Assembly (NCBI RefSeq): GCF_000331995.1
Contig: NC_020134.1
Coordinates: forward strand, 905,465 to 969,464
Length of the DNA stretch: 64,000 nucleotides
Direction of reading: 5' to 3'
Origin: Thermoclostridium stercorarium subsp. stercorarium DSM 8532
Lineage (GTDB): Bacteria; Bacillota; Clostridia; DSM-8532
The notes beneath the pieces were generated by a model. That model did no database searches. It was given only the letters and a program-made list of their open reading frames with translations, and was not told the origin of the DNA. The number at the start of each line of letters is the position of its first letter. The first letter of the stretch is position 1. Position numbers and translations under genes: made by a program. Below, piece by piece: positions 12,412 to 64,000 of the stretch.

Positions 12412-13719
12412 GTGGAAATTATTACAGAGCACAGTGATATATATAAAACAGATAAATATAACGGCCCCGTGGTGGATGGAGTTATGCCGGATATGCTGAA
12501 TCCGTCTTTTTGGGTGGAATTGTATGAAGACTCTGATAAAATTATTATGACCAGCGACGAAATAAGGCAGTTCAATGAACGGAATTTCAAGGCTCTGCCG
12601 TTTCTGTTTGACTTTAAGGTATTGCCCCGAATGGTTGAGGGTGAGGAAGTGCTGAAATGGATAAACGGACTGAGCACAGTGCCTGCGTCAGCGCGGTATG
12701 ATGAAAGCGGGAATAGGTATCAGCAAAAGGATTATGATAAGCTTAAAGAAAACCTTAATAAAGGGAAAATCGCAGAAAGCATGAATGTTGCATACGGCTT
12801 TACGGTAAAACGGACTCAGATGCGCACATGGCCTTCGTTTAAGAAGTCTTTTCCTGATGCTGCAAGCCGGCGGATTGATTATTTTACCGAAACTGCCGTA
12901 TATGCGGCGGAGCCTGTTCAGATTTATCACATCAGCGCCGACGGACACTGGTATTTTGCCAGGGTTTATAACTACAGGGGATGGATACCTGCGGGGGACA
13001 TTGCCCTGTGTCCTGCGGAAGAACTGGAAAAATACCTGAATTTCAGTGATTTTCTTGTGGTCAAAGGGCCTAAAATATATATACCGGAATCTCAGGACTT
13101 ACGGATTTCGGGGCTGCAGCTTGACATGGGTGTTAAGCTTCGGGTTTTGTCCGAGAGTTCGGAGGGCTATGTTGTAAATTTCCCCGTTTGCGATGACAAT
13201 AACGGTCTTCGTTTTGTTCCGATAACCATACCTTTTTCCGAAGATGTGTCGCGCGGGTTTCCTGATTATACGGTAAAGAACGTGCTGATACAGGCTTTCA
13301 GGTTCCTGGGCGAACCCTACGGATGGGGTGGAATGAATAATGCCGGGGACTGCTCTTCTTTCATAGAGGATGTATACCGTTCGTTCGGAATAATTCTTCC
13401 TCGGAATTCCAATCAGCAGGAAAAATTGGAGGGCTTTGTGTCCTTTGCCGGGAAAGGCAGAATGGAAAGGCTGAAAATACTTGATTCGTTAAAACCGGGG
13501 ACACCTTTGTATATGCCCGGGCATGCAATGATGTACCTGGGCAGGTTTAACGGAAGATATTACATAATTCATAATGTTACCACGATATACATAAAAGATG
13601 CCGACGGCGCATTGACCCCCGCAGAACTGAATCAGGTTTCGGTAACGCCTCTGGATATATACAACAGCGAGGGAAATGAATACATTATGATGCTTACTAA
13701 GGCGGTACCAGTTGAATAG
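12412..13719 (+). CDS. SH3 / NlpC-P60 family cell-wall endopeptidase
   Basis: About 435 residues. The C-terminal 150 residues are an NlpC/P60 domain with the catalytic Cys in NAGDCSSFIEDVY, the His in GHAMMYLG and a third polar residue in IIHNVT. In front lie SH3-like segments (YAAEPVQIYHISADGHWYFA and the following strands) that in YkfC-type enzymes help to recognise the stem peptide. Such enzymes cut the gamma-D-glutamyl-diamino-acid bond of peptidoglycan peptides. There is no signal peptide, so it may act on recycled muropeptides in the cytoplasm. The GTG at 12412 has a poor ribosome binding site and an in-frame stop lies seven codons upstream; ATG 12478 is an alternative. It stands alone and converges on the Mrr-like gene. 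Confidence 0.82.
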   Translation: MEIITEHSDIYKTDKYNGPVVDGVMPDMLNPSFWVELYEDSDKIIMTSDEIRQFNERNFKALPFLFDFKVLPRMVEGEEVLKWINGLSTVPASARYDESGNRYQQKDYDKLKENLNKGKIAESMNVAYGFTVKRTQMRTWPSFKKSFPDAASRRIDYFTETAVYAAEPVQIYHISADGHWYFARVYNYRGWIPAGDIALCPAEELEKYLNFSDFLVVKGPKIYIPESQDLRISGLQLDMGVKLRVLSESSEGYVVNFPVCDDNNGLRFVPITIPFSEDVSRGFPDYTVKNVLIQAFRFLGEPYGWGGMNNAGDCSSFIEDVYRSFGIILPRNSNQQEKLEGFVSFAGKGRMERLKILDSLKPGTPLYMPGHAMMYLGRFNGRYYIIHNVTTIYIKDADGALTPAELNQVSVTPLDIYNSEGNEYIMMLTKAVPVE

Positions 13720-29686: not shown

Positions 29687-30661
29687 ATGCCAAAAACCGA
29701 GGATATAATTCAAAGATCAGGGGTATCGCGAAGCACGCTTTTCAGGTTTCTGAGAGGCAATAACGTAAGGCCTGAAGCGAAAAAAGCCATACTGAAAGCA
29801 ATGCACGAACTGGGCTACAGCACAAAGGAACTGTTTTTGAAAGATGTGGTTCTGGAAATCAGTGTCGCGAAGGATTTTGAGAAATTTAAAGGTTTCACTG
29901 AAGTGATACATGGTATCACTGAAAGAGCCGAAATGAAAAAAATAAGAATTCAGCTTGTCATACGTACCGGGGAACAGATTAGAAGGGACTACGAAAAGTG
30001 GAGTGATAAAAACGATGCGAAAGGGGTTATCATTATAGGCAAGGATGCGGAAAACGAAAACCTGGAGGCACAGTGGCTGAAGCAGAAAAAAATCCCGCAT
30101 ATTTTTGTCAACCGCGTAATGGAAGACCCGGATATAAGTTATGTGGCCGTAGATGTGAGAAAAGCGGCATGTGATATTGTGGAGTACCTGATTAAGAAAG
30201 GCCATACGAAAATTGCAACGCTGGGATATCCCGATATTCTCAGAATAGACAGAGACAAACTGGCGGGTTACGACGATGCCTTTGAGAAAAACGGTTTAAA
30301 AGCTGATAAAAAGTATAAATTTATACTTAAGGAACATGATACATCGATTGATGCAATTGAGGCCATACTTAAAATGGAAGATAGGCCCACGGCCTTTTTC
30401 GGCATATGCGATTCATATGCGATGGAATTCATTAACAAGGCAAGGGAAATGGGGCTGAGAGTGCCCGAGGATATTGCCGTGGTGGGAATGGATGATCTGG
30501 ATATAGCGCAGTACTTTAAGCCCTCCCTTACGACGGTGAAAACTCCGTTCAGGGAACTGGGAATATTGGCGGTGGATTATCTGCTGCAGATGTTAACGGA
30601 CGATGTGGCAAGCGTTAAGGCTATTGTAAAACACACTTTGCACATCCGTGAATCTGCTTAA
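29687..30661 (+). CDS. LacI-family transcriptional regulator, probably of uronate catabolism
   Basis: 324 residues. An N-terminal helix-turn-helix (EDIIQRSGVSRSTLFRFLRG) and hinge (KKAILKAMHELGYS) precede a periplasmic-binding-protein-like sensor domain with VGMDDLDIAQYFKPSLTTV near the C-terminus, typical of LacI proteins. The helix-turn-helix is slightly shorter at its N-terminus than in most family members. GATAAGGAG lies 6 bases before the ATG. It is 45 bases upstream of kduI and in line with kduI-kduD, so it probably senses a pectin-derived keto-deoxy sugar acid and controls its own operon. The ligand is inferred from position only. Confidence 0.85.
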   Translation: MPKTEDIIQRSGVSRSTLFRFLRGNNVRPEAKKAILKAMHELGYSTKELFLKDVVLEISVAKDFEKFKGFTEVIHGITERAEMKKIRIQLVIRTGEQIRRDYEKWSDKNDAKGVIIIGKDAENENLEAQWLKQKKIPHIFVNRVMEDPDISYVAVDVRKAACDIVEYLIKKGHTKIATLGYPDILRIDRDKLAGYDDAFEKNGLKADKKYKFILKEHDTSIDAIEAILKMEDRPTAFFGICDSYAMEFINKAREMGLRVPEDIAVVGMDDLDIAQYFKPSLTTVKTPFRELGILAVDYLLQMLTDDVASVKAIVKHTLHIRESA

Positions 30662-52751: not shown

Positions 52752-53762
52752 TTGAGCGAATATATACTTGAAGTAAAAAATTTATATAAGGAATATACGT
52801 CGAAAAACATAACTGTCAAGGCGGTAACCGATATAAGTTTCAGCATTAAAAAAGGCGAAACCGTCGGAATAGTAGGGGAATCGGGATGCGGAAAAACAAC
52901 GCTGGGAAGGTGCATAGTGCGTGCCATACCTGCCACAAGCGGTCAGGTATTATATACGGCCGAAGACGGTATAACATACGATTTTCTGAGTATTGACAAA
53001 AAGAAACTGAAAGAATTGCGCAAGGATATACAAATGATATTCCAGGATCCGTATTCCTCGCTGGATCCCCGCATGACCGTTCTGAATATAATCACCGAAC
53101 CGCTGAAAGCCAATTTCCCTAAAATGAAAAAAAGTGAAATGGAGCAGCGGGCCACTGAAATAGCTGAAAAGGTCGGTTTGAATCCCAGTTATCTGAGACG
53201 TTATCCTCATGCCTTTTCGGGTGGTCAGCGGCAGAGGATAGGAATTGCAAGGGCTTTGGTTATAAATCCGAGGATTGTGGTATGCGACGAACCGGTAAGC
53301 GCACTTGACGTATCCATACAGGCGCAGGTTATAAACCTCTTAAAGGATCTGCAGAGGGAATTCGGTCTTACATACATTTTTATCAGCCATGATTTGTCGG
53401 TGGTTGAATATATCTCGGATAAAGTAGGGGTAATGTATCTTGGAAAAATGGTTGAGTTTGCAGAAACCGAAACCCTGTTCTCAAGACCCATGCACCCGTA
53501 TACCGAGGCGTTGTTGTCTTCGGTTCCGGTAGCCGATCCAACATATAAGATGAACAGAATTCCGCTAAAAGGCGAAATACCCAACCCGGCCAATCCGCCA
53601 AGCGGCTGTTATTTCCATGAAAGGTGCAGTTACTGCAAAGACATTTGCAAAAAAGAACCGCCAGAATACCGCGAAATAGAAAAAGACCACTTTGTTGCGT
53701 GCCACAGGGTGGAAGAACTGAAACTGAGAGGTTTTTCATATGATGAACAGAGAGCAATCTAA
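52752..53762 (+). CDS. ABC importer ATPase, DppF/OppF type
   Basis: About 336 residues. Walker A is GESGCGKTTLGRC, the signature is FSGGQRQRIGIA, Walker B is IVVCDEPVSALD and the switch His is in ISHDLSVVEYIS. The C-terminal domain has the cysteine cluster SGCYFHERCSYCKDIC. The start is TTG 52752, which has AGGAGGGG 7 bases upstream; earlier ATGs lie inside the preceding gene and have no such site. It overlaps the HAD gene at the 3' end. Confidence 0.92.
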   Translation: MSEYILEVKNLYKEYTSKNITVKAVTDISFSIKKGETVGIVGESGCGKTTLGRCIVRAIPATSGQVLYTAEDGITYDFLSIDKKKLKELRKDIQMIFQDPYSSLDPRMTVLNIITEPLKANFPKMKKSEMEQRATEIAEKVGLNPSYLRRYPHAFSGGQRQRIGIARALVINPRIVVCDEPVSALDVSIQAQVINLLKDLQREFGLTYIFISHDLSVVEYISDKVGVMYLGKMVEFAETETLFSRPMHPYTEALLSSVPVADPTYKMNRIPLKGEIPNPANPPSGCYFHERCSYCKDICKKEPPEYREIEKDHFVACHRVEELKLRGFSYDEQRAI

Positions 53763-54285
53763 AAAACTTGTGATTTTCATAGACAGTGGTGATACAATAA
53801 TTGACGAATCAACTGAAATACGGGATGAAAACGGCATTGTGATCCATGCCGAACCGATAGAAGGTGCCGCCGAAACGCTGAAGGCACTCTATGAAGCCGG
53901 TTATACCATTGCACTGGTGGCCGACGGCGAATACCAGTCCTTTGAAAACGTCTATACCCAAAACGGTCTGAAACACTGTTTTAAAACATGGACCGTTTCG
54001 GAAATTGTGGGCAAGCAGAAACCTGCGGCCGTCATGTTTGAGGATGCAATGAAAAAAAACAGTTTAACCGAAGAAGACAAAAAAAGAATTGTAATGATTG
54101 GAAACAATTTAAAAAAGGATATAGTCGGGGCAAACAGGTTTGGTATAACGTCCATCCTTATGGCATGGTCCCCGCGGTATAACATGCAGCCTTCTTCACC
54201 CGAGGAAACGCCTGATTATATTGTTCATAAGCCGTCGGAATTGCTGCCGCTGATTGAGGAGTTAAACAGCCGGCTGGATGAATAA
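53740..54285 (+). CDS. HAD-superfamily hydrolase
   Basis: 181 residues. HAD motif I is VIFIDSGDTIIDES, with the nucleophile Asp and a Gly-Asp-Thr in place of the usual Asp-Gly-Thr. Motif II is probably ALVADGEYQS, the Lys of motif III is in VGKQKPAAVMFEDA, and motif IV is IGNNLKKDIVGANRFGI, where the first acidic residue is replaced by Asn. It may remove phosphate from a sugar phosphate. The lack of the second Asp in motif I is seen in several dehalogenase-like branches and leaves the activity open. It overlaps the ATPase gene by 23 bases and closes the operon. Confidence 0.8.
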   Translation: MMNREQSKKLVIFIDSGDTIIDESTEIRDENGIVIHAEPIEGAAETLKALYEAGYTIALVADGEYQSFENVYTQNGLKHCFKTWTVSEIVGKQKPAAVMFEDAMKKNSLTEEDKKRIVMIGNNLKKDIVGANRFGITSILMAWSPRYNMQPSSPEETPDYIVHKPSELLPLIEELNSRLDE

Positions 54286-56733: not shown

Positions 56734-56759
56734 CTTTGAGCTTGGGGGGTTTTTTTACA

Positions 56760-59243
56760 ATGCGGGTTAAAATTTTGGTCGCTGAAGATTCGACGGTTGA
56801 AAGAACAATAATAAAGGATATGCTCAGCGACTATCAGGTTTTGACGGCTTGTGACGGCGTGGAAGCGATGCATGTGCTTAACGAACACAATGACGTTGAC
56901 ATTCTTATACTTGATCTTAATATGCCAAGAATGGATGGTTTTCAGGTACTTGAGGCTTTGAGGTGCGACCGGCGTTTTAAAAATCTGCGGACGATAATTC
57001 TTACAAATTACGATGAGCTGGAAAATGAAATCAGAGGTCTAAGACTTGGTGCCGTTGACTTTATCCGCAAGCCAATCCATATGCATTCGCTGAAAGCAAG
57101 GATAGACGTACATGTTACACTGTTGCGTGCACAACAGGCTCTGGAACAGAGACTGGATGAACAAACCCTTACATTTGACATGATTTTTACACAGGCACCC
57201 ATCGGAATTGCCATTTCCCATGAGCTGAAAGGACACGATAAGCCCGTCATAAAGGTTAACCCGATGTTCGAGCAGATTGTGGGGAGAACAGAGGAAGAAA
57301 TAAATATTATCGGGTGGGAAAAGATAACCCATCCCGATGATCTGGGGGAAGACGCGGAAAACCTCAAAAAGCTCAGGGCTGGTGAAATTGGAATGTATTG
57401 CATGGACAAGCGCTATATAAGGCCTGACGGCTCGGTGGTCTGGGTACATATGATTGTAGCTCCGCTTATTCTGCCGGAAGATCGGATTTTCGGTCATATC
57501 TGTCTGGTACAGGATATTACTGACAGAAAAATATTTGAAGAAGCCCTGCATGAAAGTGAGCGCAGCAAATCGGTGTTTCTTTCCCATTTACCTGGACTTG
57601 CATACAGATGCAATTATGATCGTGAATGGACAATGCAGTTTGTTTCTGACGGATGTTATGCCCTTACCGGCTATCGTCCGGAAAGCCTTCTGAATAACAG
57701 GGAACTTTCATTTAAAGACATTATTTCCCCCGAATACCGGGAAGCTTTGTGGAATAAATGGAAGGAAGTCCTTGCCCAAAGACAGCAGTTTAAATACGAA
57801 TACGAGATTATAACCGCAACGGGTGAAAGAAAATGGGTTTTGGAACTGGGCCAGGGGATTTTCAACGACAACGGTGAAGTTGAAGCCCTGGAAGGAATTA
57901 TTCTTGACATATCGGATCGAAAGGCAGTGGAAGATGCGTTAAAATATAATAACGAGCATGACAGAACCACAGGATTGTATAACCGGGAGTACTTAATTTC
58001 ATTACTTGAAAATGATTTGAAGAAAAAGAAAGACATAAAAAAGGCGCTTATTGGCGTAAATCTTACAGCTGTTCAGTTATTGACGGTAAAATACGGGTTT
58101 AATTATACTCAAAGTCTGATAAAAAAGGCTGCTGCGGTTTTAAGCGCGCTTTGTTCCGAAAACAGGCAACTGTTCCATGTCCGTGAAAACCGGTTTGTTT
58201 TTTACATAGTGGGATATAGTGATAAAAACGAGCTTGTTGAATTTGGCAATGCCGTGGCGGAGACTTTGGAGTCACTGTTTATAACCGACAGAATAAATGG
58301 CGGTATAGGAATTGTTGAAATTGATCAGCATCAAAGCGAAATCAATGCAGAACTGCTTATGAGAAGGATGCTACTCGCCACTGATAGATCCATAAATCTG
58401 TATGATAATGATTATGTGATATGTTTTTATGATGATGAACTGGAGTCGATGGTTAACCGTGAAATAGAGATTGAAAGGGCGCTTTTTGCAATAGCAAACG
58501 ATACCGGTACAAAAGACGAGTTGTTTTTACATTATCAGCCTATTCTTGATTTAAAAAGCGGCTCCATTTGCGATTTTGAGGCATTGTGCAGATTAAAGAC
58601 CGAAAAGCTTGGACTTGTTTCCCCGGCGGAGTTTATCCCGGTTGCCGAAAAAACAAAACTCATAATCCCGATAGGTGAAAAAGTTATTATAAATGCTTTT
58701 AAGTTTTTGAGCAGGCTTAACGAAAACGGCTATGGAAACATTTCGGTTTCAGTCAATATTTCGGTTATCCAGCTTCTGAAACCTGAGTTTACCGACAGGC
58801 TGCTTGAATTAATAGCCAAAATGAACGTAAATCCGGGAAATATATGCCTTGAAATTACCGAATCGGTTTTCTCTTCCGATTTTGCGCGTATAAACAAAGC
58901 TATTAACAAACTGAGAACGGCGGGAATTCACATTGCAATAGATGATTTCGGAACAGGTTATTCCTCCCTTGCCAGGGAAAAGGAACTCAACGTGGACAGC
59001 CTGAAAATAGACAAATATTTTATTGATAATTTGCTGGATGCCAATCCGGACAAGGTTATAACCAGCGATATTATCTCCATGTCCCATAAGCTGGGGCATT
59101 GTACAGTAGCCGAGGGCGTAGAGCATGACATACAACTGCATTATTTAATGGAACACGACTGCGACAGAGTTCAGGGATACCTGATAAGCAAACCCCTTGA
59201 TGAAAACAACGCTATTGAGTTTTTGAAAAATTACAGTGCATAG
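56760..59243 (+). CDS. Response regulator with PAS, degenerate GGDEF and EAL domains
   Basis: About 827 residues. A receiver domain (1-125) has EDST, the phospho-acceptor Asp in LILDLNMPRMDG and the Lys-Pro in IRKPIHMHS. It is followed by a coiled coil, two PAS/PAC units (about 135-265 and 280-400, ending in VQDITDRK and ILDISDRK), a GGDEF-like domain whose active motif reads RENRF, and an EAL domain with DFEALCRL, NISVIQL, LEITES, AIDDFGTGYSSLA, LKIDKYF and AEGVEHD. The cyclic-di-GMP phosphodiesterase site seems intact and the cyclase site lost, so it probably degrades c-di-GMP in response to phosphorylation or a PAS ligand. ATG 56760 follows GGGGGG. The HPt relic lies directly before it. 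Confidence 0.9.
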   Translation: MRVKILVAEDSTVERTIIKDMLSDYQVLTACDGVEAMHVLNEHNDVDILILDLNMPRMDGFQVLEALRCDRRFKNLRTIILTNYDELENEIRGLRLGAVDFIRKPIHMHSLKARIDVHVTLLRAQQALEQRLDEQTLTFDMIFTQAPIGIAISHELKGHDKPVIKVNPMFEQIVGRTEEEINIIGWEKITHPDDLGEDAENLKKLRAGEIGMYCMDKRYIRPDGSVVWVHMIVAPLILPEDRIFGHICLVQDITDRKIFEEALHESERSKSVFLSHLPGLAYRCNYDREWTMQFVSDGCYALTGYRPESLLNNRELSFKDIISPEYREALWNKWKEVLAQRQQFKYEYEIITATGERKWVLELGQGIFNDNGEVEALEGIILDISDRKAVEDALKYNNEHDRTTGLYNREYLISLLENDLKKKKDIKKALIGVNLTAVQLLTVKYGFNYTQSLIKKAAAVLSALCSENRQLFHVRENRFVFYIVGYSDKNELVEFGNAVAETLESLFITDRINGGIGIVEIDQHQSEINAELLMRRMLLATDRSINLYDNDYVICFYDDELESMVNREIEIERALFAIANDTGTKDELFLHYQPILDLKSGSICDFEALCRLKTEKLGLVSPAEFIPVAEKTKLIIPIGEKVIINAFKFLSRLNENGYGNISVSVNISVIQLLKPEFTDRLLELIAKMNVNPGNICLEITESVFSSDFARINKAINKLRTAGIHIAIDDFGTGYSSLAREKELNVDSLKIDKYFIDNLLDANPDKVITSDIISMSHKLGHCTVAEGVEHDIQLHYLMEHDCDRVQGYLISKPLDENNAIEFLKNYSA

Positions 59244-59459: not shown

Positions 59460-61208
59460 ATGAATTTGTACGGCAGATATTTCAAAAAATACTGGTTTCC
59501 TTTCCTGACAGCCGTTTTTTGTGTTGCATGTGAGGCGGTGTGCGATCTGCTTGCCCCAACGCTTATGTCAAACGTAATTAATATGGGGATTGCTCAAAGC
59601 CAGATTTCCCAGGTTTATTACTGGGGAAGCCGTATGCTGCTGGTAACGTTTTTAGGCGCGTGTTTTGCAGTTACAAGAAACATTCTGGCCAGTATGGTAT
59701 CCCAGCGCATGGGAGCAGATTTAAGATATGATTTGTTTGAAAAGATAATATATTTTTCAGAACGAAGTGTTGACAAAATTGAAAGCGGATCGCTTATTAC
59801 CCGTATGACCAATGATACATCTCAAATAGTACAGTTTGTTAACGGTATTATGCGGATTTTTATGAAAGCGCCGATAACTTGCGCAGGCAGCATAGTTCTT
59901 GCAAGCATGCTCAACTTCAGGCTGAGCCTTATTGTATACTGTGTTGTTGCGATAGTTGCCGCTCTCATTATTGTCAGTATGAAGCTCAGCTATCCACGGT
60001 ATTCTGTATTTCAGAAAGCAATGGACAAGGTAAATTCGGTTGTCCAGGAATACCTCATAGGAGTGCGCCTGGTAAAAGCCTTTGGCACTTACGAAGAAGA
60101 AAGTGAGAAGTTTGAAAATGCCAATTCAAATCTTATGAAAAGCGGGATATCGGCTCAAATGATTATTACGCTGATATCGCCCGTAATTACCTTCACGGTC
60201 GGTATCGGAACGGTTACTGTAATTTATGCCGGAAGCAGGCTGTTTGCGGTAAATCTTGCAAACCCGGGCGATATTACGGCATTTACCGTTTATATGTCGC
60301 AAATGCTGACGTCCTTGATAATGATTACGAATATATTTAATACCTTTGTAAGGACAAAGGCTTCCACCGCCCGTATTAAGGAAGTATTTGAATGTGACGG
60401 GGATTTCACCGGCGGTGAGGAAAAAGAATTAAACGGGGATATTGAATTTGAAAATGTCACTTTTGCGTATCCAAACGGCAGTGGAGTACCGGCGCTGAAA
60501 AATTTATCGTTTTCGGTTAAAAGCGGTGAAACCCTTGCAATTATCGGACCTACGGGAAGCGGCAAATCCACTTTGGCATGGCTGCTTTTGAGGTTCTACG
60601 ACGTGAACGGCGGAAGAATTCTGATTAACGGATGCGACATCAGAGAACTGGATGTTGAGCTGTTACGCAAAAATATAGCGATTGTACCCCAGAAACCTAT
60701 GCTTTTTTCAGGTACAGTTGCCGAAAACATCAGGTGGGGAAACAGGGAAGCCACCGATGAAATGGTGAGAAAAGCAGCGAAGACGGCACTGGCCGATGAT
60801 TTTGTCAGCAGGATGAAGGACGGCTATGAAAGCCTTTTGGGGAGCGGAGGAGTGAATCTCTCAGGCGGACAGAAGCAGCGTGTATCCATAGCCAGGGCGA
60901 TACTTAAGAACTCCCCGGTGCTTATACTGGATGACGCCACCAGCGCACTGGATGCGGTAACCGAAGCAAAAGTGCGTGAAAATCTGATGAACAGGGACCG
61001 TACTCAGACCGTGATAATCATAACCCAGCGTTGCAGCACAGCCATGTATGCAGACCGGATTCTTGTTCTGGATAACGGCGAAAAAGTGGGTTACGGCACA
61101 CATGAGCAACTGATGAAGGAATGCGAAGTATATCGGGATATATACAGAACGCAAATAGAAAGCAGCAGGGGGGGCGCAGTGAATGGGACAGAATATTTCA
61201 AGACCTGA
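59460..61208 (+). CDS. ABC exporter half-transporter with degenerate catalytic site
   Basis: 582 residues. An N-terminal six-helix export domain is followed by an ATPase domain with Walker A GPTGSGKSTLAW, signature LSGGQKQR and Walker B VLILDDATSALD. The residue after Walker B is Asp instead of the catalytic Glu, and the switch region reads ITQRCST instead of the usual AHRLST. These are the known marks of the degenerate half of heterodimeric exporters such as TM287/288, BmrCD and LmrCD. A TATAAT at 59402-59407, with a weak -35, is the likely promoter. It overlaps the second half by 26 bases and would export drugs, lipids or peptides. Confidence 0.9.
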   Translation: MNLYGRYFKKYWFPFLTAVFCVACEAVCDLLAPTLMSNVINMGIAQSQISQVYYWGSRMLLVTFLGACFAVTRNILASMVSQRMGADLRYDLFEKIIYFSERSVDKIESGSLITRMTNDTSQIVQFVNGIMRIFMKAPITCAGSIVLASMLNFRLSLIVYCVVAIVAALIIVSMKLSYPRYSVFQKAMDKVNSVVQEYLIGVRLVKAFGTYEEESEKFENANSNLMKSGISAQMIITLISPVITFTVGIGTVTVIYAGSRLFAVNLANPGDITAFTVYMSQMLTSLIMITNIFNTFVRTKASTARIKEVFECDGDFTGGEEKELNGDIEFENVTFAYPNGSGVPALKNLSFSVKSGETLAIIGPTGSGKSTLAWLLLRFYDVNGGRILINGCDIRELDVELLRKNIAIVPQKPMLFSGTVAENIRWGNREATDEMVRKAAKTALADDFVSRMKDGYESLLGSGGVNLSGGQKQRVSIARAILKNSPVLILDDATSALDAVTEAKVRENLMNRDRTQTVIIITQRCSTAMYADRILVLDNGEKVGYGTHEQLMKECEVYRDIYRTQIESSRGGAVNGTEYFKT

Positions 61209-63060
61209 AACAAAGATGCCGTCGTTTGGCGCGATGAGGCCTGGCGGCGGGCCCAGCCGTTTTGCACCCGGAGCGAAACCTAAAAATGCAAAGGGAACTA
61301 TGACGCGTATCATAAAAATATATATGCGATGGGGGAAATCCATTTTTCTGGCTATGTTCCTTACTGCAGTTTCATCGTTAATTTCAGTCACGATTCCGTA
61401 TTTTACCGGAAAGACCTTTGATGCCTTTGAGCTTGCAGCCAGAACTGTGGACACAGGAATGCTCGTGAAATATTTGCTGATAATCGTGGCTTTACACGCA
61501 ATAAATTGGCTCATTTCAGCTTTCAGCGGAGTGATTATACTCAAAGTCTCGCAAAAACTTGTTTACACTGTGCGAAAAGAAGTTTTCGAAAAAATGCAGA
61601 AGCTTCCGTTGGAATTTTACGACACGCGTTCCCATGGCGACACGATGAGCCGGATTACAAATGACGTGGACAATATCAGTTCTACCATTGCCCAGACAAC
61701 AACACAGTTAATATCAAGTATTCTGACCCTTATAGGTTCCCTTGTGGTAATGGTACGAATGAACATACCGCTGACTCTTGTTGTTCTGTTATGTATTCCC
61801 CTTGTAACCGCTCTTACGCGGTTAATTGCATCCAGAAGCCGTGCATATTTTCTCGAACAGCAACGCAATCTCGGTGCGCTTAACGGGATCATTGAGGAAA
61901 ACATCCTTGGCCTGAAAATGGTAAAGGCTTTCGGAAAACAGAAGGATGTTCTAAAGAAGTTCAGGGAAGTCAATGAAAAGTTGAATGAAAGCAGTACAAA
62001 GGCTCATATATGGTCTGGATATATGATGCCCCTTCTGAACGTCATTAATAACCTTGTTTTCACCGCTACCGCGATAACAGGAGGAATACTTGCGGTGAAT
62101 TATAACCTTCCTGTCAGCACCGTGGTGAGTTTCCTGAGTTATTCAAAGCAATTTGCCCATCCTCTTAATTCCATTGCAGGCATGTTTAATACAATACAGT
62201 CTGCTCTGGCGGGCGCGGAACGGGTTTTTGAGATTCTGGACAGTGAGGAGGAAGCGGCTGACCCGGAAGGTGCTGCTGATCTGGAGCATCCGAAAGGACA
62301 TGTGGTGTTTGATAATGTGAGTTTTTCTTACAATAAAACAACTCCTGTATTGAGAAACATAAATTTCAGCGTAAAGGCGGGAGAAGTGATTGCGCTTGTC
62401 GGCGAAACAGGCGCGGGAAAAACAACTATTGTGAATCTCCTGATGCGTTTTTATGATCCGGATGACGGAAGGATACTGATTGATAATAAGCCGATAACCG
62501 GCATCAAACGAAACAGTCTCAGAAAATGCTTTTCGGTAGTGCTTCAGGACACATGCCTTTTTACCGGTACCATTATGGACAATATTCGCTATGCCAGAAA
62601 GGACGCAACCGATGAAGAGGTAATCAGGGCTGCCAAAATAGCCCGAGCCCATGACTTTATTAGCAGATTGCCTAACGGGTATAATACTATGGTTTCGGGT
62701 GCCACTGACAATTTAAGCCAGGGCCAGCGCCAGCTTATTGCAATTGCCCGCGCGGTGCTGTGCGACAGCCCTATATTAATACTGGACGAAGCAACCAGCA
62801 GCGTTGATACGAAAACCGAGAAAGACATCCAGCGGGCCTTGGTTAACTTGATGAAAAACCGCACATGCTTTTTGATAGCTCACCGTCTGTCCACAATAAG
62901 GGATGCCGATCATATTCTTGTTATCAGTGACGGAAGAATAGTGGAGAGCGGCAACCATGAAAGCCTTATGAACCAAAGAGGACAATATTATAAAATGGTA
63001 ATAAGCCAGATGGGCATTAACAGTCCGCTGTATAAAGACGTTTGTAAATCGGAGCTGTGA
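61183..63060 (+). CDS. ABC exporter half-transporter, catalytic half
   Basis: 625 residues. A Gly/Pro-rich N-terminal tail of about 40 residues (FGAMRPGGGPSRFAPGAKPK) is followed by six membrane helices and an ATPase domain with Walker A GETGAGKTTIVN, Walker B ILILDEATSSVDT including the catalytic Glu, switch IAHRLST, and an altered signature LSQGQRQL. The altered signature faces the degenerate Walker B of the other half, while the canonical signature of the other half completes the working site here. GGGGGG precedes the ATG. It is co-transcribed with a two-component system that probably controls it. Confidence 0.92.
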   Translation: MGQNISRPETKMPSFGAMRPGGGPSRFAPGAKPKNAKGTMTRIIKIYMRWGKSIFLAMFLTAVSSLISVTIPYFTGKTFDAFELAARTVDTGMLVKYLLIIVALHAINWLISAFSGVIILKVSQKLVYTVRKEVFEKMQKLPLEFYDTRSHGDTMSRITNDVDNISSTIAQTTTQLISSILTLIGSLVVMVRMNIPLTLVVLLCIPLVTALTRLIASRSRAYFLEQQRNLGALNGIIEENILGLKMVKAFGKQKDVLKKFREVNEKLNESSTKAHIWSGYMMPLLNVINNLVFTATAITGGILAVNYNLPVSTVVSFLSYSKQFAHPLNSIAGMFNTIQSALAGAERVFEILDSEEEAADPEGAADLEHPKGHVVFDNVSFSYNKTTPVLRNINFSVKAGEVIALVGETGAGKTTIVNLLMRFYDPDDGRILIDNKPITGIKRNSLRKCFSVVLQDTCLFTGTIMDNIRYARKDATDEEVIRAAKIARAHDFISRLPNGYNTMVSGATDNLSQGQRQLIAIARAVLCDSPILILDEATSSVDTKTEKDIQRALVNLMKNRTCFLIAHRLSTIRDADHILVISDGRIVESGNHESLMNQRGQYYKMVISQMGINSPLYKDVCKSEL

Positions 63061-63102: not shown

Positions 63103-63795
63103 ATGGTGGTTGATGAAAAACGGAACATTTTAGTGGTTGACGATGATGAAGATTTATGTAAATTACTTAAAGACTATCTGGAAAAACAGTCTTACAATGT
63201 GGATATTAAAAACAATGGAGTGGACGCATTGCTAAGTGTTTTAAAAAGAGAGTATGCCTTAATAGTTCTGGATATAATGATGCCTTTGCTTGACGGGCTT
63301 GACACGCTGAAAAAGATTCGGGAAACCAGTTCTGTGCCTGTTTTGATGCTTACGGCAAAAGCCGAAACCGAAGACAAGGTTAAAGGGCTGAATACAGGTG
63401 CGGACGATTACGGCGCCCGTGTTAACTCGCTTATCCGCCGGGCCACCGAATTTAATGCTGCGGGCGGAACTAAAAAGGGTATTTACGTTTTTGATAATTT
63501 GGAAATCGACGATATTCAGAAAAAAGTATTTTTAAACAGCAACGAAGTTAAGTTAAATCCAAAGGAATATCAGGTACTCCTATATCTGGCACAAAACGCC
63601 GGAAGGGTTTTTACTAAAAAACAGATATATGAGGCGGTATGGGAAGAACCTTATGAGTACGATGACAGCAATATTATGTCGGTTATAAGCAGATTGCGTT
63701 CCAAAATAGAATCCGTTTCAGGCGGGGAAAAGCATAAGTTTATTGAAACGGTGAAAGGAATGGGGTACCGTTTTGTTTCAGGTGGTAAAAAATGA
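63103..63795 (+). CDS. OmpR-family response regulator with a shortened receiver domain
   Basis: 230 residues. The receiver has the acidic pair VVDDDED, the phospho-acceptor D57 in IVLDIMMP and the Thr in LMLTAKAE. The C-terminal winged helix (ending ETVKGMGYRFV) is a complete OmpR DNA-binding domain. After NTGADDY the sequence goes straight to GARVNSLIRRA, whereas relatives have about 12-14 residues there with the conserved Lys-Pro-Phe and the start of helix 5. The loss is in frame. GGAGG precedes the ATG. It probably controls the upstream exporter genes, and its signal partner is the kinase that overlaps it by 4 bases. Confidence 0.85.
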   Translation: MVVDEKRNILVVDDDEDLCKLLKDYLEKQSYNVDIKNNGVDALLSVLKREYALIVLDIMMPLLDGLDTLKKIRETSSVPVLMLTAKAETEDKVKGLNTGADDYGARVNSLIRRATEFNAAGGTKKGIYVFDNLEIDDIQKKVFLNSNEVKLNPKEYQVLLYLAQNAGRVFTKKQIYEAVWEEPYEYDDSNIMSVISRLRSKIESVSGGEKHKFIETVKGMGYRFVSGGKK

Positions 63796-64000
63796 TTGAA
63801 ACCGCTGTTATGATTGTGCTGGTTTGCGCCTGTATTTATTTGCTGTATAAGTATAAACAGTTGAAAGGCTCCGTTATGCGGGTGAGCAGGGAATTGGCGG
63901 AGATGGGTGAAGAAGAGTCTACAAGAAGAAAAATTTTAATCAGAAGGAATGCCCCTTTTTCTGAAATTGTATTTTCCATAAACGCAATTATTGATAAAAA
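63792..64000 (+). CDS. Sensor histidine kinase (N-terminal part, cut by window end)
   Basis: The first 69 codons are visible. The ATG overlaps the stop of the response regulator in ATGA. A single membrane helix at the N-terminus (TAVMIVLVCACIYLLYKYKQ) is followed by a charged cytoplasmic segment (RVSRELAEMGEEESTRRKIL) and SEIVFSINAIIDK, a region that often comes before the dimerisation helices of one-helix kinases such as YvcQ-like or intramembrane-sensing types. The kinase core lies outside the window, so the call rests on gene order and this N-terminal layout. Confidence 0.7.
   Translation, partial: MIETAVMIVLVCACIYLLYKYKQLKGSVMRVSRELAEMGEEESTRRKILIRRNAPFSEIVFSINAIIDK

Follow-up and report, generated by a model that had tools for sequence, protein, structure and literature searches.

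A response regulator gene of the OmpR/PhoB family, located at the right end of the window (the whole stretch of 64,000 nucleotides that was analysed), carries an internal deletion of 30 nucleotides and is most plausibly interpreted as a gene recently inactivated within a Cpr/LanFEG-like cassette in decay. Quite probably, this cassette is dispensable and in ordinary deletional decay, and the deletion in its regulator is not an adaptation. The regulator gene and the deletion junction are located as follows.

63103..63795, plus strand: OmpR/PhoB-family response regulator with an internal 30-nt in-frame deletion (230 aa, ATG start; open reading frame and Pfam)
63409..63417, plus strand: deletion junction Tyr103 (63409-63411) / Gly104 (63412-63414) / Ala105 (alignment)

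Across the junction, the open reading frame 63103-63795 (+) reads GLNTGADDYGARVNSLIRRA. The conserved Tyr and Arg columns are spaced by 2 residues in this protein, compared to 12 in all 136 distinct relatives of the OmpR family. The ten missing residues correspond to 30 nucleotides, were lost in frame, and comprise the Lys, the Pro, the end of β5 and the first turn of α5. The relatives contain Lys-Pro in 131 cases and Lys-Thr in the other five; the Lys is thus kept in each of them. This set consists of orthologues and paralogues, including paralogues from the same genome. It was obtained from 158 places in the collected loci by merging identical segments, after matches of fewer than 150 query residues and frames longer than 300 aa had been dropped. 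An earlier note had read GADDY as directly joined to GARV, with the Lys-Pro loop absent and the frame, Asp57 and the winged helix preserved, and the reading frame and the alignment agree with it on all these points. Its estimate of 12-14 lost residues (36-42 bases) was slightly too high; the loss as such stands, at ten residues and 30 nucleotides. The short form was detected in none of the 136 distinct relatives and was seen in one genome only. Because it is unique, we infer a loss in the regulator rather than a gain in its relatives.

The Pfam profile Response_reg matches the regulator only with its positions 1-96 of 111, and Trans_reg_C matches residues 147-224 with positions 2-77 of 77 (E 3.4e-24). 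Among the characteristic receiver residues, Asp57, the acidic pair, Thr84 and Tyr103 are present and the Lys is absent. The protein thus has the winged helix expected of an OmpR/PhoB regulator and lacks a receiver complete with its Lys. This Lys contacts a phosphoryl oxygen, and the missing segment belongs to the dimerisation face of OmpR-family receivers (PMC12632262), which is formed by α4-β5-α5 (PMC12632262; for the lantibiotic-resistance regulator NsrR, PMC4773095). Judged from its sequence, the regulator has likely lost normal phosphoryl switching and is probably signal-dead. No natural ten-residue deletion of the Lys-Pro loop was recognised in any OmpR-family receiver in the portions of the literature available to us.

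Structure prediction by AlphaFold2, based on 32 aligned sequences, yielded a model of the short regulator with a mean pLDDT of 78.3 and a pTM of 0.46. The model contains four receiver strands and none after β4, where local confidence is low; the mean pLDDT values of the ten-residue blocks covering residues 81-120 are 60, 46, 58 and 52. The intact relative L119, modelled with the same 32 sequences, reached a pLDDT of 89.3 and a pTM of 0.55 and displays five strands with β5 at 97-100; the blocks of its own residues 81-120, whose numbering is offset by 5, have values of 75, 91, 94 and 86. The contrast between the two models suggests a loss of β5 in the short form, and is regarded as supportive only: AlphaFold2 is not a test of stability, and the alignment is gapped at the deletion.

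The remainder of the gene is well preserved. An AGGAGG sequence resembling a ribosome-binding site was seen by eye directly 5' of the ATG. Outside the deletion, the regulator has no substitution at the 43 columns with a conservation of 90% or more among the 31 remaining sequences of the alignment. Compared to 13 relatives from cassettes, it has four substitutions at columns that are invariant in the relatives; the same measure gave 0 for nine of the 13, 1 for two, 3 for L135 and 4 for L131. The best identity was 53% among 391 genomes of the class (own genome included), where 17 others matched at E<=1e-48, and 49% among 60 relatives. A GTDB scan gave identities of 31-43% among the matches listed, which number at least 80, come largely from Clostridia and Bacilli, and possibly exclude records of the genome itself. 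A close orthologue or a second strain for dating the deletion was found neither among the 391 class genomes and the 60 relatives nor among the GTDB matches listed.

The conserved partners of the regulator are located downstream, mostly past the end of the window.

63792..64000, continuing to window-equivalent 64703 (L038:7257-8168), plus strand: start of a VanS-like histidine kinase (HisKA and HATPase)
L038:10013-10442 (window-equivalent 66548-66977, beyond the window end): permease 2, C-terminal half only (locus comparison)

The gene order is regulator, VanS-like kinase, LanF/CprA-like ATPase, ABC-2 permease 1 and the remnant of permease 2. The kinase has 303 residues and its start codon overlaps the stop codon of the regulator; kinase, ATPase and permease 1 are open frames with domain matches. 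Regulator, kinase and a LanF-like ATPase (59-64% identity) are collinear in 15 of the 18 loci that were read around the closest regulators, a set which includes the likely near-duplicates L145/L146 and L149/L150. In five of these 15, kinase and ATPase are separated by a permease-like match. Of the three loci lacking a collinear ATPase, two are cut off by a contig end, L139 some 300 nt after the kinase match and L153 at the match itself, and L152 has no such ATPase beside the regulator. A start codon overlaps the stop codon of permease 1, but the fragment of permease 2, which has lost its 5' half, is not in frame with it. In relatives, the second permease following the first has 254 aa (L141), a frame of up to 283 aa (L148), or about 200 aa with an early frame stop (L136). 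Among the 18 cassette loci, six match the fragment at E<1e-8, with L142 the best (3e-12), and another four at E<1e-3.

The best NCBIfam matches of regulator and kinase are VanR-ABDEGLN (164.8 bits) and VanS (149.5 bits), as in VanR/VanS pairs; unlike in these pairs, however, the scores fall far short of the cut-offs (350 and 400), and no other van gene is among those neighbours that were annotated. The ATPase scored 258.6 bits on TIGR03740 (lantibiotic protection ATPase), which is below the curated cut-off of 309.75. Permease 1 matched two lantibiotic permease models weakly (E 8e-6 and 4e-5), below their cut-offs of 145.2 and 117.2. In its make-up, the cassette resembles a peptide-resistance operon of the Cpr/LanFEG type: like CprABCK-R of C. 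difficile and LanFEG operons (PMC5786555), it would consist of a regulator and a kinase clustered with a single ATPase and two permeases. The likeness is based on this make-up and on model matches below the cut-offs. Differences are the gene order, which is regulator-kinase-ATPase-permeases here, and the lesions: the regulator is internally deleted, and the second permease is a C-terminal fragment, whereas the other four components of a LanFEG-type cassette are present.

Upstream of the regulator, two exporter genes and a signalling gene were assigned.

61183..63060, plus strand: ABC exporter half B, Pfam-intact (open reading frame, Pfam)
59460..61208, plus strand: ABC exporter half A, Pfam-intact (open reading frame, Pfam)
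56736..59243, plus strand: receiver-PAS-GGDEF-EAL gene, left-flank anchor common to G001 and G002 (locus comparison)

The earlier note had proposed that the regulator may control the adjoining exporter. The exporter pair is not a conserved neighbour: at E<=1e-8, only matches to ATP-binding domains and none to the exporter membrane domains were obtained in the 18 regulator loci, some of which contain little upstream sequence (e.g. 1.9 kb in L140). Control of the exporter was rejected as the default reading because no membrane-domain match occurs in any of these loci. An exporter-B relative at E<=1e-170 was not found in three genomes of the same genus, for each of which the best 39 candidates were scored. 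A frame of 124 aa in L149 (5240-5614) and at the same place in L150 resembles only the C-terminal end of an ATP-binding domain of the ABC type. It is located upstream of an intact regulator relative, at a distance of about 400 nt, and is possibly a relic of an exporter.

The same three genomes of the genus (G001, G002 and G003) were used to trace the cassette. The FGGY kinase gene of the right flank has an identity of 92-93% in G001 and G002, and of 84% in G003. The sister species G002 contains cassette relics between the EAL and FGGY genes.

L191:3263-4340 (G002:C75): cassette relics including an in-frame fusion frame of ATPase and permease 2

The first relic corresponds to kinase codons 175-302 (70%) and is preceded by a short, frame-broken N-terminal piece that was recognised by eye. 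In the second, ATPase codons 3-48 (85%) are fused directly to the fragment of permease 2 (67%). No match at E<=1e-8 was obtained in this interval for the regulator, permease 1 or the exporters. In G001, the EAL and FGGY genes adjoin and no cassette relic was detected at E<=1e-8; in the 18 kb that were read of G003, there is neither a cassette part nor an EAL match. The ATPase has no match at E<=1e-95 in 31 other genomes of the family. The relics at the same locus of G002 imply that the cassette was present in the common ancestor of both genomes or entered both. As far as can be read from the two sequences, the cassette is eroded by deletions in both this genome and G002.

The two genomes were further compared by means of dN/dS values (Nei-Gojobori). 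These were 0.21 for the kinase relic, 0.22 for the permease 2 fragment and 0.05 for the ATPase N-terminus (46 codons), compared to 0.027 for FGGY, 0.039 for ROK and 0.083 for EAL in the flanks; all values are below 1. The dN values of the kinase relic (0.16) and the permease 2 fragment (0.20) are about that of EAL (0.18). The ratios of these two fragments exceed those of the flanks mainly because of their lower dS of 0.75 and 0.90, as opposed to near-saturated values of 1.5-2.8 in the flanks. With a relic dN similar to the EAL dN there is no clear sign of relaxed selection.

Taken together, the regulator has a change that is absent from its relatives, and further lesions occur in the same cassette and at the same locus, as expected for decay by deletion. 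In the ancestral cassette, the kinase would have sensed a membrane-active peptide and then phosphorylated Asp57; the receiver would have dimerised via α4-β5-α5, and the winged helix would have activated the transporter genes. The present regulator may be misfolded or signal-dead and would not relay the phosphoryl signal, and the cassette would no longer be inducible. The loss of 30 nucleotides would be one early step in the loss of the cassette. Deletions of this kind are ordinary, since, among the single inactivating changes of Salmonella pseudogenes, short deletions (up to 20% of the frame) form the largest class (141 of 346; PMC2916853), which is not subdivided by reading frame in the part of this source available to us. 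Counting against decay, the deletion is in frame and the protein otherwise well preserved, kinase, ATPase and permease 1 are still open, and no dN/dS value reaches 1. That all deletions are in frame for a reason was ruled out, because permease 2 of this genome and the kinase of G002 are out of frame.

An alternative is a working pseudo-receiver, i.e. a regulator that would be independent of phosphorylation, locked on or off or relieved of receiver inhibition, and would constitutively drive the cassette or the exporter. The in-frame deletion, the winged helix, Asp57, the ribosome-site-like sequence and the intact conserved columns are all compatible with it. Moreover, pseudo-receivers lacking an active-site residue are estimated to make up about 6% of bacterial receivers (PMC12632262), and some atypical regulators such as BldM are active (PMC4125116). 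The regulator agrees with the former in missing one of the five active-site residues, the Lys; it differs in that this Lys was removed by a ten-residue deletion including part of β5 and α5 and not by a substitution, whereas six minor Pfam types of pseudo-receivers are said to retain the (βα)5 topology (PMC12632262). Such an activity is very unlikely, given that parts of β5 and α5 are gone and AlphaFold2 confidence falls there, that permease 2 is also broken, that no aligned relative has the short form, and that the G002 locus yielded no regulator (E<=1e-8). The locked state or constitutive control envisaged by the earlier note gained no positive support: permease 2 is truncated as well, G002 has only relics, and β5 is lost in the model. 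Even less probable is a four-stranded receiver in which the loss of the loop and of the dimer face has freed the winged helix for phosphorylation-independent control of cassette or exporter. Least of all is it to be expected that the regulator still pairs with a different regulator or passively accepts phosphate; it does retain Asp57 and the acidic residues, but it is missing the Lys that binds the phosphoryl group and a segment of the face used for dimerisation (PMC12632262). Deletional decay explains more of the data than a locked or constitutive regulator. It would make the genus a small, clear example of how a sporadic resistance-type cassette is lost step by step through deletions: it is nearly complete with two lesions in one genome, reduced to relics in another, and not found elsewhere. 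It also advises caution: neighbours and sister genomes should be checked before a missing signalling residue is called a new switch mechanism. Should the short regulator prove functional, it would be a test of how far a receiver can be reduced without loss of regulation.

An error of assembly or consensus, by which 30 bases were lost from the assembled sequence of a normal regulator, is unlikely, yet less so than a working short form. It would agree with the occurrence of several deletions in one assembly and with the well conserved remainder of the regulator. On the other hand, the genome consists of a single contig with a completeness rating of 100%, deletions are found in the same cassette of the independent genome G002, and the three lesions detected are all within two LanFEG-type cassettes. 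The second of these is located at about 94967-98874 of G000:C1, and its regulator keeps KPF.

L162:2468-3268 (G000:C1 94967-95767, outside the window): N-terminal part of a LanF-like ATPase continuing in frame into a C-terminal permease part

The fusion point is near residue 109 of the frame and roughly 670 bp are missing; in the family member G028, ATPase and permease are separate frames of 239 and 253 aa. A LanFEG-type ATPase remnant with two internal stops was observed in L169 (G024:C69:35586-35831). Together with the fusion, it indicates that the loss of LanFEG-type cassettes recurs in the family. A 94-aa open frame in L163 (G000:C1:387613-387804) matches only residues 7-70 of the LanF-like ATPase and is a possible ATPase relic.

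As a control for a genome-wide deletion artefact, the 39 other genes of the window were scanned with Pfam; 36 had a match and three had none at 1e-6. The two genes that looked most truncated turned out to be normal: the HAD gene 53740-54285 has relatives of 185-196 aa in G003, G017 and G028, and the LacI-type gene 29687-30661 has an HTH-like N-terminus, as seen by eye. The control is incomplete in that it rests on these two checked genes; further partial matches in the window include E1_dh (66-294/300) and MacB_PCD (1-133/207). A scan for promoter and terminator consensus sequences was uninformative, with 25 found versus 18.7 expected and 11 versus 7.4. Finally, the gene at 12412-13719 of the window has an SH3 domain followed by a partial NLPC_P60 match (profile 1-74 of 105), which may reflect simple divergence.
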